NCBI RefSeq assembly: GCF_019793435.1
Contig: NZ_JAILYH010000007.1
Location: forward strand, 186,001-250,000
DNA length: 64,000 nt
From: Rhizobium redzepovicii
GTDB taxonomy: Bacteria > Pseudomonadota > Alphaproteobacteria > Rhizobiales > Rhizobiaceae
Direction: 5' to 3'
Shown here: piece by piece, positions 14,501-34,415 of the stretch
Layout: each line of letters opens with the position of its first letter
Numbering within the stretch: the first letter of the stretch is position 1
Position numbers and translations under genes: made by a program
The notes under the pieces: model-generated
Told to the model about the DNA's origin: nothing
Databases searched by the model: none
The model's input: only the letters and a program-made list of their open reading frames with translations

Positions 14501-14831
14501 TATCGCGGACGCACTTGGTTCCGCCGGCCGGTCAGAAGATTGCGGCGGCGCAGCGAAAGCAGCCCGCACAATTCGGCGCAACGCATGGTCAGGCTGGTTT
14601 CCTCGCTCCTCGCGAGGCGGCATCGCCCCGCGAAAGCAAGCACGCTCCAGACGCGCGCAAGTCGGCGCGACGCTGTCAGATCGTGACAGTCGCGACGACC
14701 GGCAATCATGCCTGTGGGAGGTCAGCGACAATTTGATGTGAGAGCATCGTGATGCTCTTGTCTTGCAGCATTCTTTATTGCAGTTTTGAGATGTTGCGGA
14801 TCGATTTTGATCCGTTCGAGGCTGGACCCTG
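14501..14831. other. Intergenic region, no supported gene
   Basis: Short open frames here are Arg/Ser-rich with no ribosome site and look spurious. There is one hairpin (AGAGCATC/GATGCTCT, 14741–14758), otherwise nothing. The promoter of the minus-strand sRNA candidate should lie in the left part. Confidence 0.5.
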
Positions 14832-31460: not shown

Positions 31461-31505
31461 CATGCATATGCCCGGAAGCGCTGAAGACTTCCGGGCATAT
31501 GCATG
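31461..31505. repeat. 18-bp perfect inverted repeat after pheA
   Basis: The arms CATGCATATGCCCGGAAG and CTTCCGGGCATATGCATG are separated by a 9-nt loop and lie 12 bp past the pheA stop. There is no T-run on the + strand, so it is not a classical terminator. It sits between convergent pheA and VOC genes and could stop both or protect the 3' end. Confidence 0.75.
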
Positions 31506-31525: not shown

Positions 31526-31894
31526 TTATTTATCCGGCTCACAGACGCGAAGGCGATGGCCGTCCGGATCGAGCACGACGAAGGTCGGGCCGAAATCCAG
31601 TTCGGTCAGTTCCTGGGCGATCGGCAGACCGCGACCGCGCCAGTCCTCGTAATGATTGGCGACGGCGTTTTCCCCCTTGACCATGAAGGCCACTTCGCCG
31701 CGGTTGCCGATCGCGGAAGGCTGCGGCTCGACCTTGCTGCGCCGCCAGAGGCCGAGGGTGAAGCCGCCCTCGAGCGGAAAGGCGACAAAATTCGGTGCTT
31801 CCACGGCTGGTTCGCGGTTCAGGAGGTTGCGGTAGAAGCTGGCGCTTTCGCCGGGGTCCTTGACGTACAGGATAATCAGGTTCGGACTGGTCAT
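31526..31894 (-). CDS. VOC (glyoxalase/bleomycin-resistance fold) family protein
   Basis: A 122-residue protein of the vicinal oxygen chelate superfamily with two beta-alpha-beta-beta-beta modules (LIILYVKDPGESASFYRNLL at the start; FVVLDPDGHRLRVCEP at the end). Members bind a metal and act as glyoxalases or dioxygenases, or sequester drugs. The metal ligands are not clearly complete here, and the LDPDGHRLRV ending is typical of uncharacterised single-domain members. A 23-bp inverted repeat starts 46 nt upstream of the ATG; the same sequence at the same distance precedes the small gene beside the WYL regulator, suggesting co-regulation. No reaction can be assigned. Confidence 0.88.
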   Translation of the reverse strand: MTSPNLIILYVKDPGESASFYRNLLNREPAVEAPNFVAFPLEGGFTLGLWRRSKVEPQPSAIGNRGEVAFMVKGENAVANHYEDWRGRGLPIAQELTELDFGPTFVVLDPDGHRLRVCEPDK

Positions 31895-31939
31895 TTCGGT
31901 TCTCCCGTTGATGTGAAATGATAAGGACGATGGACCCGA

Positions 31940-31962
31940 CTGCTGCCAATGGATGGCAGCAG
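31940..31962. promoter_or_regulatory. Candidate WYL-regulator operator, VOC copy
   Basis: The perfect 9-bp arms CTGCTGCCA/TGGCAGCAG have a 5-nt centre. It starts 46 nt before the VOC start codon. Its last ten bases, ATGGCAGCAG, and first six, CTGCTG, are identical to the repeat at 32325–32347. Confidence 0.65.
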
Positions 31963-32018
31963 GAAGTGGAGGCGCGCGCCCCGTTCGTCGGGTGGAATAT
32001 CAATGGTAATGAAGTGGC

Positions 32019-32279
32019 TTAGAGCGGAAAACGATCCTCGCGGCGCGGGCCGCGCCCATCCAGAAAGCCGAGGTCACGCTTCAAGGAATCCGATGTCGTT
32101 TCAAGATCGAGTTTCGAGCGGTTTCCCCCGGGATTGCGGAGAAGGCCGATGACCCGTCCCAGCAAGCCGGAGCGCGCCGATTGGCGGACGTCGGCAAAAG
32201 TTTCGGCCGAAATGACATCGGCAAAGGTCTCAGCTGCAAAACGCTCGTTGGCGAAATGGATGGCGGGAGGCATTGCCAT
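32019..32279 (-). CDS. Small hypothetical protein beside the WYL regulator
   Basis: An 86-residue soluble protein (MAMPPAIHFANERFAAE...) with an internal repeat FAAETFADVISAETFADV and a C-terminal SLKRDLGFLDGRGPRR segment that loosely recalls DUF1127-type endings. A strong ribosome site (AGGAAGGAG, 8 nt upstream) supports the start. A 23-bp inverted repeat matching the one before the VOC gene starts 46 nt upstream of the ATG. The gene lies between the WYL regulator and the VOC gene on the same strand. Function unknown; co-regulation with VOC is inferred from the shared repeat. Confidence 0.7.
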   Translation of the reverse strand: MAMPPAIHFANERFAAETFADVISAETFADVRQSARSGLLGRVIGLLRNPGGNRSKLDLETTSDSLKRDLGFLDGRGPRREDRFPL

Positions 32280-32324
32280 GATCAGTACTCCTTCCTGGTG
32301 GATTGGTACTGATAATAACGCCCG

Positions 32325-32347
32325 CTGCTGACAGTTTATGGCAGCAG
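32325..32347. promoter_or_regulatory. Candidate WYL-regulator operator, small-gene copy
   Basis: An inverted repeat with arms CGCTGCTG/CAGCAGCG (including one extra pair on each side) around ACAGTTTATGG. It matches the repeat at 31940–31962 in 18 of 23 positions and also starts 46 nt before a start codon. A TATTAT -10-like box follows on the minus strand. Confidence 0.65.
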
Positions 32348-32351
32348 CGTT

Positions 32352-33044
32352 TCAGTTCTCAAGCGGCACATCCTGCTCGCGCCATTCTTTCAGAAGAACC
32401 GTGCGGCGGCGCGGATAACGCACCTCATGCAGCGTCATGTCGATGATGCGGTCGGTGCGGAAATGGCGGAAGTCCTGGCGCAGTTCGCACCAGGCCATGA
32501 GGACCCGCACATGCTCGAAATAGCCGAGTGCGAAAGGCCAGACCCGGCGACGCGAGATCCGGCCCTGTTCGTCGCCGTAATGCAGTTCGAGGATACGCTC
32601 AAGGCGGATCGCCCGGCGGATGGCCGAAACGTCAGCCTTGTCCTCGTCCCGGCGCTTAGGGCCGACGAAGAGGGCGGCCGAATCGATCATGTCCCGCATG
32701 TCCGCCGGCAGCACCGCGGCAATCTTGGCTAGCGCATCGGCGCCGGCGCCGGCCAGGCGCGGCTCGGCGGCGCGGGCGACCCAGCGCGAACCGAGGACCA
32801 GCGCCTCCAGCTCCTCTTCGGAAAACATCATCGGCGGCAGCATGAAGCCGGGCTTCAGCACGTAGCCGATGCCGGCTTCGCCTTCGATCATCGCCCCCTG
32901 GGCCTGGAGGCTGGCAATATCGCGATAGAGCGTACGCAGGCTGACGCCGGTCTCCTCGGCAAGCACCGTGCCGGTCACCGGCCGCCGGTAACGCCGAAGC
33001 GTCTGAAGCAGCGTCAGCAGCCGTTCCGAGCGCGCGACCGGCAT
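32352..33044 (-). CDS. YafY-type transcriptional regulator (HTH + WYL domain)
   Basis: A 230-residue regulator. The N-terminal winged helix (RSERLLTLLQTLRRYRRPVTG, SLRTLYRDIASLQAQGA) resembles DeoR-type domains. The C-terminal WYL domain (from about 135, IRLERILELHYGDEQGRISRR) ends in RTDRIIDMTLHE. WYL domains sense small molecules or nucleic acids. Genes of this type often sit next to a VOC/glyoxalase gene that they repress. Two matching inverted repeats in front of the neighbouring genes are candidate binding sites. Its ATG lies only 4 bp after the nudC stop, so it may be co-transcribed with nudC. Confidence 0.9.
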   Translation of the reverse strand: MPVARSERLLTLLQTLRRYRRPVTGTVLAEETGVSLRTLYRDIASLQAQGAMIEGEAGIGYVLKPGFMLPPMMFSEEELEALVLGSRWVARAAEPRLAGAGADALAKIAAVLPADMRDMIDSAALFVGPKRRDEDKADVSAIRRAIRLERILELHYGDEQGRISRRRVWPFALGYFEHVRVLMAWCELRQDFRHFRTDRIIDMTLHEVRYPRRRTVLLKEWREQDVPLEN

Positions 33045-33048
33045 GGTG

Positions 33049-34008
33049 TTACCGCTTCCACTCCACCCAGTCGCGCATCAGGCGGTGGGCGATCGCCCCT
33101 TTCGGCGGCGAGGCCTTGCCAGTCGCGCTCGGGCGTTCCAGCATCTCGATCGTTTCCTCGCGGGTGAACCAGCGGCAATCCTCGAGTTCCGTCTCGTCGC
33201 GGGTGATTTCGGTGGATTTGGCCTCGGCGTAGCAGCCGATCATCAGCGAGTGCGGCATCGGCCAGGGCTGCGAGGCGTGGTAGCGGATGCGGCCGGTGCG
33301 GATGCCCGACTCCTCCAGCGTTTCGCGCCGCACGGCGTTTTCGATGGTCTCGCCGGGTTCGAGGAAGCCGGCAAGGCAGGAATACATGCCAGGCGCAAAA
33401 TGCGGGCTGCGGCCGAGCAAGCAGAGGTCGCGGCTCTCGTCGACCGTCAGCATGATGACGACCGGGTCGGTGCGCGGGAAGATCATGTGTTCGCAGGCAG
33501 CGCAGACACGCTTGTAGCCGCCGATGTGGATCTCCATCGCCGAGCCACAGCGGCCGCAGAAGCGGTTGTCGCCATTCCAGCGGATCAGGCTCGCGGCCTG
33601 GGCGAATTCGCCGAGTAGCACCTCGTCGATCAGCATTTCGCGAAACAAAGTGCGGCCGTCGGCAGGCTTGTAATGGCTGGCGAGGTCGTCGACGTCGATG
33701 CCGACGGGGACGGCAAGCCGCGGCTCGCCCGATTTGCGGTAGCCGAGAAGCACGGTCTCGTCCCAATCCGGCTGCAATTCCTGCAGCTCGTAGCGGGCAA
33801 AGAGCGGATCGAGCACCTGACCGTCATGCTTCAGCACCAGCCTGTCTCTGGCGAAGGCGAAGATATGCGTGCCGTCCCTTGCCAGCGCCTTTTCGACGGA
33901 GTGTTCGTCGCGATGCTCGGAATCGCGATTGAGGTCGTTGGCGGCAAAAGCCGTGAGATTGCTGGGTTCGGGATGCGGCACATCCGAATCGAAAAGCGAA
34001 TGACTCAT
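33049..34008 (-). CDS. nudC: NAD(+) diphosphatase / NADH pyrophosphatase
   Basis: A Nudix hydrolase of 319 residues that cleaves NAD(H) to nicotinamide mononucleotide and AMP and can remove NAD caps from RNA. A four-cysteine zinc site lies near residue 155–185 (CGRCGSAMEIH, VCAACEH). The Nudix box GFLEPGETIENAVRRETLEE is near 218. The NudC-specific SQPWPMPHSLM motif, which sets NADH specificity, is near 260. I start at the ATG giving MSHSLFDSDV; it overlaps the upstream HIT gene stop by 4 bp, so the two are coupled. The WYL regulator follows directly. Confidence 0.94.
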   Translation of the reverse strand: MSHSLFDSDVPHPEPSNLTAFAANDLNRDSEHRDEHSVEKALARDGTHIFAFARDRLVLKHDGQVLDPLFARYELQELQPDWDETVLLGYRKSGEPRLAVPVGIDVDDLASHYKPADGRTLFREMLIDEVLLGEFAQAASLIRWNGDNRFCGRCGSAMEIHIGGYKRVCAACEHMIFPRTDPVVIMLTVDESRDLCLLGRSPHFAPGMYSCLAGFLEPGETIENAVRRETLEESGIRTGRIRYHASQPWPMPHSLMIGCYAEAKSTEITRDETELEDCRWFTREETIEMLERPSATGKASPPKGAIAHRLMRDWVEWKR

Positions 34009-34415
34009 GATGAAAGGGCTTCCCGCAGCTTCGCTATGAATTCGTCTCTCTTTCCGTCCTCGTAGGGCTCCGCGCGCCCGAATCCCCAAACGGGACCCGG
34101 CCAATTGGCATCGCCTTCGAAGCGGGCAATGACATGAACATGAAGCTGGCGGACGATATTGCCAAGAGCCCCGATATTGATTTTTGTTGCGCCGGTGATC
34201 TCTTTCAGGGCTTTGGCGACAAGCTCCGTCTCGAAGGCAAGCAGCACCTGGTCGAGCGGCGTCAGCTCGAAGATTTCGGTGATTTCAGCCCGGCGCGGCA
34301 CGAGAATGAGCCAGGGCCAGCGGGCATCCCTCGACAATCTGAGATCACAGAGGCCGGTGACCATGACGCTGGTGCTGTCGTTTTCCAGCCGGGGGTCGAG
34401 CACGAAACCGTTCAA
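34005..34415 (-). CDS. HIT-family nucleotide-binding protein, TTG start
   Basis: A histidine-triad protein of the nucleotide hydrolase/transferase superfamily, with the triad in RQLHVHVIARFEGD (near residue 96). The open frame extends 5' into the SRP RNA gene on the opposite strand, which is unlikely to be translated. I therefore start at a TTG preceded by GGGAGGA at 6 nt, giving LNGFVLDPRLENDS and 136 residues, the usual size for this family. It couples to nudC by a 4-bp overlap; both proteins act on nucleotide conjugates. The exact substrate is unknown. Confidence 0.85.
   Translation of the reverse strand: MNGFVLDPRLENDSTSVMVTGLCDLRLSRDARWPWLILVPRRAEITEIFELTPLDQVLLAFETELVAKALKEITGATKINIGALGNIVRQLHVHVIARFEGDANWPGPVWGFGRAEPYEDGKRDEFIAKLREALSS

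Follow-up and report, generated by a model that had tools for sequence, protein, structure and literature searches.

Putative operators of an HTH-WYL regulator lie at a conserved distance from a -10-like element in Rhizobium redzepovicii and its relatives

The window analyzed here is the whole 64,000-nucleotide (64-kb) stretch of Rhizobium redzepovicii DNA. On its minus strand, the locus of interest runs in the order NUDIX gene, WYL gene, operator 1, small gene, operator 2, and VOC gene. The features are as follows.

33049..34104, minus strand: NUDIX gene of the NADH pyrophosphatase type, 4 nt upstream of the WYL gene
32352..33044, minus strand: WYL regulator gene (230 aa), the presumed binder of the repeats, with Pfam HTH_11 and WYL matches
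32325..32347, no strand assigned: putative operator 1, palindrome CTGCTGCCATAAACTGTCAGCAG (written for the minus strand), upstream of the small gene
32312..32317, minus strand: TATTAT, the putative -10 for the small gene, 10 nt beyond the core of operator 1, with G at -14
32019..32279, minus strand: gene of the small protein (86 aa), first presumed target, with a C-terminal motif kept among relatives
31940..31962, no strand assigned: putative operator 2, perfect palindrome CTGCTGCCATCCATTGGCAGCAG (written for the minus strand), upstream of the VOC gene
31927..31932, minus strand: position expected for the VOC -10 by the conserved spacing, where the sequence is CATCGT, not a -10
31918..31923, minus strand: TATCAT, at +19 behind operator 2, found in the window only when compared with 25 representatives
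31526..31894, minus strand: VOC-fold gene (122 aa), EhpR/ATC0852-like, second presumed target, assigned by Pfam Glyoxalase and profile matches

Since the WYL gene starts 4 nt after the NUDIX gene, the two are probably co-transcribed. At the other end of the locus, the VOC gene is convergent with a prephenate dehydratase gene. Between these two genes, at 31461-31505, we observed an inverted repeat whose perfect 18-bp arms enclose a 9-nt loop (RNA fold of -37.3 kcal/mol, z -6.7). It looks like a shared two-way terminator; it is not among the matches of the terminator scan of the region.

The two inverted repeats lie at 31940-31962 and 32325-32347, exactly where a preliminary description of this DNA had placed them. 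The former pairs at 9 of 9 arm positions and the latter at 8 of 9, and direct alignment of the two 23-mers gives 19 of 23 identical positions rather than the 18 counted before. Each repeat does start 46 nt above an ATG, leaving 45 nt in between, but the meaning that had been attached to this equal distance did not survive: it is a coincidence of this genome, as the gaps vary among relatives. With up to 3 mismatches allowed, the 23-mer pattern occurs 2 times in the window against 0.28 expected, and 3 of 100 shuffles reach 2. Searches elsewhere used the core pattern CTGNCA-N5-TGNCAG, with the reversed pattern as the control. First-order simulations of 64 kb held a mean of 0.053 exact cores, and two within 500 nt were seen in 0 of 300. 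The window itself holds three, and no core palindrome lies before its WYL gene. The third core, at 14673-14689 (L010; CTGTCAGATCGTGACAG), is without TANNNT at +10 and belongs outside the WYL/VOC module.

We examined the best 80 of 222 loci with WYL relatives, 530 kb in all, and found 116 exact cores compared to 1 match of the reversed pattern. Every one of the 116 falls in the interval from the WYL match end (set as a fixed coordinate near that end) to the VOC start, and 78 of these 80 loci have at least one. The outer CTG...CAG bases, which are outside the search pattern, carry 1.0 to 1.7 bits per base compared to 0.45 to 0.63 in the upstream flank; for operator 2 of two-operator relatives, the value is 1.7 bits per base.

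If the repeats matter to this locus, as the preliminary description held, they should be conserved in relatives that keep its genes. For operator 1 this is fully the case, with an exact core in 55 of 55 relatives that have the small gene. For operator 2 it is the case in part: 42 of the 55 have it (38 exact, 4 with one mismatch), and it is absent at 13. The 55 small genes were located by looking behind the core; 50 of them were also found by tblastn alone, and no locus had a tblastn match to the small gene without a core. The counts of 55, 24 (VOC promoters without the small gene), and 42 include many near-copy loci and so are not independent. The window is in none of the sets of 55, 24, 15, and 42 loci used below. 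The imperfect arm of operator 1 is itself conserved, with C against T in 52 and C against A in 3 of the 55 relatives.

From core end to VOC start, most relatives have 39 to 49 nt, with outliers of 58 to 78 nt (L060 to L062, L065, and L079). From core end to small-gene start, the distance is 41 to 63 nt, or about 120 nt with an insert (for L055, the gap was read from a longer start). This insert of about 70 nt, beginning ctacagcgccgcgc, stands directly after operator 1 in seven loci (L017, L026, L033, L051, L052, L054, and L055), separating the small gene from its promoter. We take it to resemble the rhizobial RIME repeat. Around position 4114 of L063, the VOC gene has no in-frame ATG at its expected start, and the ATG that lies one base further is in another frame. 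In a WYL tree of 82 rows, several forks of which are weak, the small gene is missing from each of the 21 rows in the Neorhizobium-type clade and arises inside the Rhizobium clade (L058 and L059 there are without it), and the second operator requires three changes.

Outside the genus, we took the 28 next best matches to the WYL protein from other genera and families, with 47 to 66% identity. An exact core was found at 12 of these 28 loci, with 0 for the reversed pattern; at up to one mismatch, the counts were 16 and 4, respectively. Scanning 121 family genomes with the 23-mer gave 13 sites in 11 genomes and none for the reversed pattern, leaving 110 of the 121 without a site. Four of the 13 are those of the window and of a same-genus genome. 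Among the 9 from other genera, 5 adjoin a WYL gene (54 to 70% identical) and a VOC gene, 1 is near a distant WYL gene (37%), and 3 adjoin neither. Near WYL homologues of other families, the core adjoins glutathione S-transferase (GST; L115 and L121) and epoxide hydrolase (L119) genes. At L104, the core is near a WYL homologue and a bleomycin-resistance-like VOC gene is further off, and at L117, a core with one mismatch has a MarR-type gene as its neighbor. The GST, epoxide hydrolase, and VOC genes near the core point to detoxification as a common theme of these neighborhoods.

The same genome encodes a second WYL protein (gene at C1:309277-309942) that is 62% identical to the first. A core lies 25 nt before its ATG, and a second core precedes the VOC gene that comes next after it. 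For two further WYL genes (44%), no exact core was found within the surrounding 3.6 kb. The VOC subfamily has two strong matches in the genome, each paired with such a WYL gene, and a third that is weak (2.2e-8). Judging from these shared motifs, the regulon should be widened to take in the paralogous WYL-VOC pair. The local regulon of small protein, VOC protein, and WYL regulator that had been proposed was drawn too narrowly. In its 7.0 Mb, the genome has 12 exact cores compared to 2 for the reversed pattern, and 8 of the 12 are away from the two modules. We considered a genome-wide regulon beyond the two modules and rejected it: at least three of these stray cores are inside open reading frames (L006, L008, and L009), and TANNNT at +10 was missing from all 8, whichever way the core is read. 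Of the six whose position was judged (all but L003 and L004), the other three, L005, L007, and L010, appear intergenic by eye. Taken together, the cores track the regulator across genera and at the paralogue, and the neighboring HTH-WYL regulator very probably uses the repeats as its operators, as the preliminary description had supposed.

Downstream of the cores, we identified a -10-like TANNNT element exactly 10 nt past the core in 55/55 small-gene promoters, compared to 9/2035 at other offsets. The element is at +10 in 21/24 VOC promoters without the small gene (other offsets, 10/888; the misses are L079, L080, and L089) and in 10/15 far promoters (other offsets, 2/555). The far set consists of loci with a VOC gene and a core of up to one mismatch within 120 nt of it, namely L098 to L103, L105 to L108, L126, L128, L132, L136, and the window genome's own paralogue; L104, L109 to L125, L127, L129 to L131, and L133 were excluded. 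Its misses are L099, L103, L105, L132, and L136, four of which keep TA at +10. Among representatives below 80% identity, TANNNT is at +10 in 14/14 small-gene promoters, 10/12 VOC promoters without the small gene, and 2/25 two-operator VOC promoters. These alignments indicate that the conserved quantity is the distance from the operator to the -10-like element, not that from the operator to the ATG.

Taking TANNNT as the -10 puts the palindrome center near -31. With an assumed 17-nt spacer, the -35 falls on the palindrome middle, which in the window is CATAAA (2 of 6). Across 34 representatives that have this -10, hexamers at a spacer of 15 to 19 agreed with TTGACA at 3 of 6 positions at most. 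G at -14 is present in 52/55 small-gene promoters, compared to 15/24, 3/15, and 8/42 in the VOC promoters without the small gene, the far promoters, and the two-operator VOC promoters, respectively. The -10s of the VOC promoters without the small gene are weak (TAATCT and TAAGGT). The left half-site, CTGCCA, is -35-like (mean of 4.26 of 6) but at a 21-nt spacer; we do not favor a MerR-like reading, with this half as the -35 and an overlong spacer, in which the dyad would include that -35.

The VOC promoter of two-operator relatives is different. Only 2 of 42 (L063 and L070, neither of them in the main clade, to which the window belongs) have TANNNT at +10, and in the window, the element is present at the small-gene promoter only. 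We found no conserved shifted -10 to replace it; the TATCAT at +19 in the window has no counterpart, with TANNNT at that offset in 0 of 25 representative two-operator relatives. Since operator 2 is kept while TANNNT is at +10 in 2/42, a single activation geometry does not account for the two targets together. The matched look of the two window operators hides two different promoters. Three arrangements are possible for the VOC gene of two-operator loci: transcription from the small-gene promoter, use of a different -10, or restraint at operator 2.

The 230-residue WYL protein has HTH_11 at 8-61 (9.8e-16; 57.8 bits, cut-off 25) and WYL at 140-204 (1.5e-11; 44.5 bits, cut-off 21.8). With both above the Pfam cut-offs, it belongs to the WYL-domain regulators. 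Neither Pfam nor the structure model gave a WCX domain; the protein ends 26 residues past the WYL match, and the predicted tail is little more than one helix. The model (pLDDT of 73.6, pTM of 0.44) served only to confirm domain order, and its best fold matches, PafBC, DriD, CapW, and BrxR at a TM of 0.3 to 0.4, are domain-level only. In PafC, R201 and R204 are described as arginines that bind single-stranded DNA (PMC11804915). R196 and R199 align with this pair, assuming that chain numbering equals protein numbering, and both are invariant in 33 of 33 chosen sequences.

The closest parallel is DriD, the Caulobacter crescentus activator. Its sites are centered on a degenerate -35, stand at one distance from the -10, and have a conserved G-14 (PMC12340889). 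The system described here shares the HTH and WYL fold, the palindrome on a degenerate -35, the fixed -10 distance, and, at the small-gene promoters, the G-14. An operator at a fixed -10 distance over a degenerate -35 is a DriD/PafBC-like feature, present here but not at the window VOC promoter; the C-terminal WCX, also DriD/PafBC-like, is lacking from the window protein. DriD has WCX and binds ATACGAC-N7-GTCGTAT (PMC12340889), whereas the putative site in the present case reads CTGCTGNCA-N5-TGNCAGCAG and the presumed targets are not DNA-repair genes. Because the HTH-WYL fold and the arginine pair are shared and WCX is absent, the WYL protein may work like DriD without belonging to the DriD group.

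Two further systems are related in part. The Mycobacterium smegmatis activator SiwR likewise controls adjacent genes via a core-promoter palindrome, but its site is described as falling within the spacer from -35 to -10 and as dependent on the -26 region, its main targets are DinB/YfiT-like, and it has WCX (PMC10693628). BrxR and CapW are HTH-WYL proteins, and BrxR, which apparently acts as a dimer, recognizes inverted repeats spaced by 5 bp (PMC9122601). Their targets are in phage defense, whereas the neighbors here are of the detoxification type.

How would such a protein act on this promoter? In our model, the operator is read as CTGCTGNCA-N5-TGNCAGCAG, and an HTH-WYL dimer would bind it with both of its HTH domains. 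The palindrome of the small-gene promoter would be centered near -31, over the degenerate -35 (CATAAA). Once the WYL domain has sensed a signal, the bound regulator, in analogy to DriD and PafBC, would recruit RNA polymerase with the housekeeping sigma factor to a promoter without its own -35. Transcription would then start some 22 nt beyond the operator 1 core, near 32305. We lean moderately toward the WYL protein being an activator rather than a repressor, because the palindrome sits over a degenerate -35, an arrangement shared with the WYL activator DriD. This promoter geometry leans away from the "ligand-sensing repressor" of the preliminary description.

That the protein is a repressor is nevertheless a serious possibility, if not the one we would expect. 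A dimer would then cover the -35 region and spacer and block RNA polymerase until a ligand frees it from the DNA. The operator does cover the core promoter, yet a simple block would have no need of the strict +10 spacing, and the 34 representatives keep no -35-like hexamer at a spacer of 15 to 19. Operator 2, conserved without a -10 at the activator spacing, suits a roadblock. Promoters with no -35 kept, and with -10s as weak as those of the VOC promoters without the small gene, seem however to be in need of help and not of repression. BrxR is a WYL repressor on inverted repeats, and CapW is also named a repressor (PMC9122601 and PMC10693628), although the BrxR repeats are downstream of its predicted -10 (PMC9122601). 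The paralogue core just before its own gene would fit too, as this is often seen in autorepressors. A scan of the region for consensus promoters gave one match, with 0.5 expected, whose -10 (TAAACT) is inside operator 1, as repression would have it; its first hexamer is not conserved by eye.

It is very improbable that the repeats are sites of another regulator encoded elsewhere, with the WYL gene merely a neighbor. Such a regulator could account for the 8 of 12 genome cores not beside a WYL gene found by search and for those 3 of the 9 sites elsewhere in the family that have no adjoining WYL gene (the locus of one, L133, is incomplete). But at least 3 of the 8 stray cores are inside open reading frames and none has the +10 element; distant cores are near WYL genes even at loci where the search gave no VOC gene of this subfamily (L115, L121, L119, and L104), and each of the two strong VOC-subfamily matches in the genome has a WYL gene of this kind as its partner. 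We give almost no credence to the repeats being RNA hairpins, whether for attenuation or for mRNA stability, or members of a repeat family. The perfect 9-bp arms would fold in RNA, and read-through from the small gene would carry operator 2 into the transcript, but operator 1 is upstream of the inferred transcription start and has in 55/55 relatives an arm mismatch that no hairpin needs, 7.0 Mb hold only 12 core matches, and the terminator scan found no terminator-like site in the region.

The VOC product matches Pfam Glyoxalase at 3e-10. By profile comparison, it matches ATC0852 (2KJZ) at 7.9e-49, EhpR at 1.1e-22, and mitomycin-binding protein at 6.5e-9, with 3RHE also among its nearest solved relatives; the metal-dependent FosB and FosA match more weakly (5e-8 and 3.3e-6). 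The alignment with FosA (1LQK) runs as far as query residue 116, opposite residue 110 of the FosA chain, which is a metal ligand there; Arg occupies position 116 in 21 of the 21 sequences compared. Profile similarity and the missing metal-ligand Glu place the protein with the EhpR/bleomycin-resistance type. Given its EhpR-like nearest relatives and the Arg at the FosA-110 position, a binding or sequestering role appears more likely than catalysis, and the earlier label "VOC enzyme" should give way. EhpR itself binds a phenazine derivative and is without the catalytic or binding residues of many relatives (PMC3175449). While EhpR and ATC0852 are among the closest solved relatives, ehpR is in the gene set of a phenazine producer, whereas the VOC neighbors here are NUDIX, WYL, and prephenate dehydratase genes.

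The small protein has a variable N-terminus and a conserved C-terminal LDLExxPDxxKRDLGFxDGR. Its gene has a median dN/dS of 0.33 over 377 pairs from 28 sequences, all 86-codon open reading frames (L023, L036, L055, and shorter versions were excluded). No Pfam or NCBIfam match was found for the window copy at E up to 1, and 18 members searched against Pfam gave two stray weak matches and no family. From its conservation, we conclude that this is a real, unnamed family. We tried DUF1127 and rejected it, as 0 of 18 members match PF06568 at E up to 10; an hhalign comparison with four DUF1127 proteins (probability of 13%, E of 0.0022, over KRDLGF) is a hint only. Searching the genome with the small-protein profile gave a single further match, a paralogue with the same KRDLGFLDGR end (L150, C46:96700-96858), whose neighboring gene looks LysR-like by eye. 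Small proteins of this kind may have been partnered with regulators more than once.

As for what the system does, the antibiotic-binding-like VOC protein and the small protein would together give protection against a toxic small molecule or its damage. We offer this output, like the regulator's signal and the function of both products, as a weak suggestion. A broader picture, which we hold tentatively as one joint reading, is possible rather than probable. HTH-WYL proteins without WCX would be widespread -35-replacing activators in the order, sharing the one operator code CTGNCA-N5-TGNCAG set at a constant spacing from the -10; they would sense toxic small molecules or the resulting nucleic-acid damage and induce drug-binding VOC proteins, GSTs, and epoxide hydrolases; and the R. 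leguminosarum/etli group would have recruited the small protein and re-wired the VOC promoter.

That YafY/WYL regulators often adjoin VOC genes had been put forward as established. We did not find YafY, WYL, and glyoxalase together in the open-licence papers searched, and the nearest statement is that a glyoxalase-like (pfam18029) gene is upstream of siwR in some Actinobacteria (PMC10693628). Neither the motif nor the module was described among the titles and abstract starts listed from the open-licence papers searched. In the literature consulted, WYL regulators act mostly in DNA damage or phage defense. The present case offers an operator, a promoter geometry, two candidate targets, and a paralogous pair in one genome. 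It ties a shorter WYL subclass to detoxification-type genes, with binding, direction of control, and signal accessible by a few reporter constructs. The fixed position of operator and promoter suggests that a little-studied kind of regulator switches on a drug-binding-type protein.
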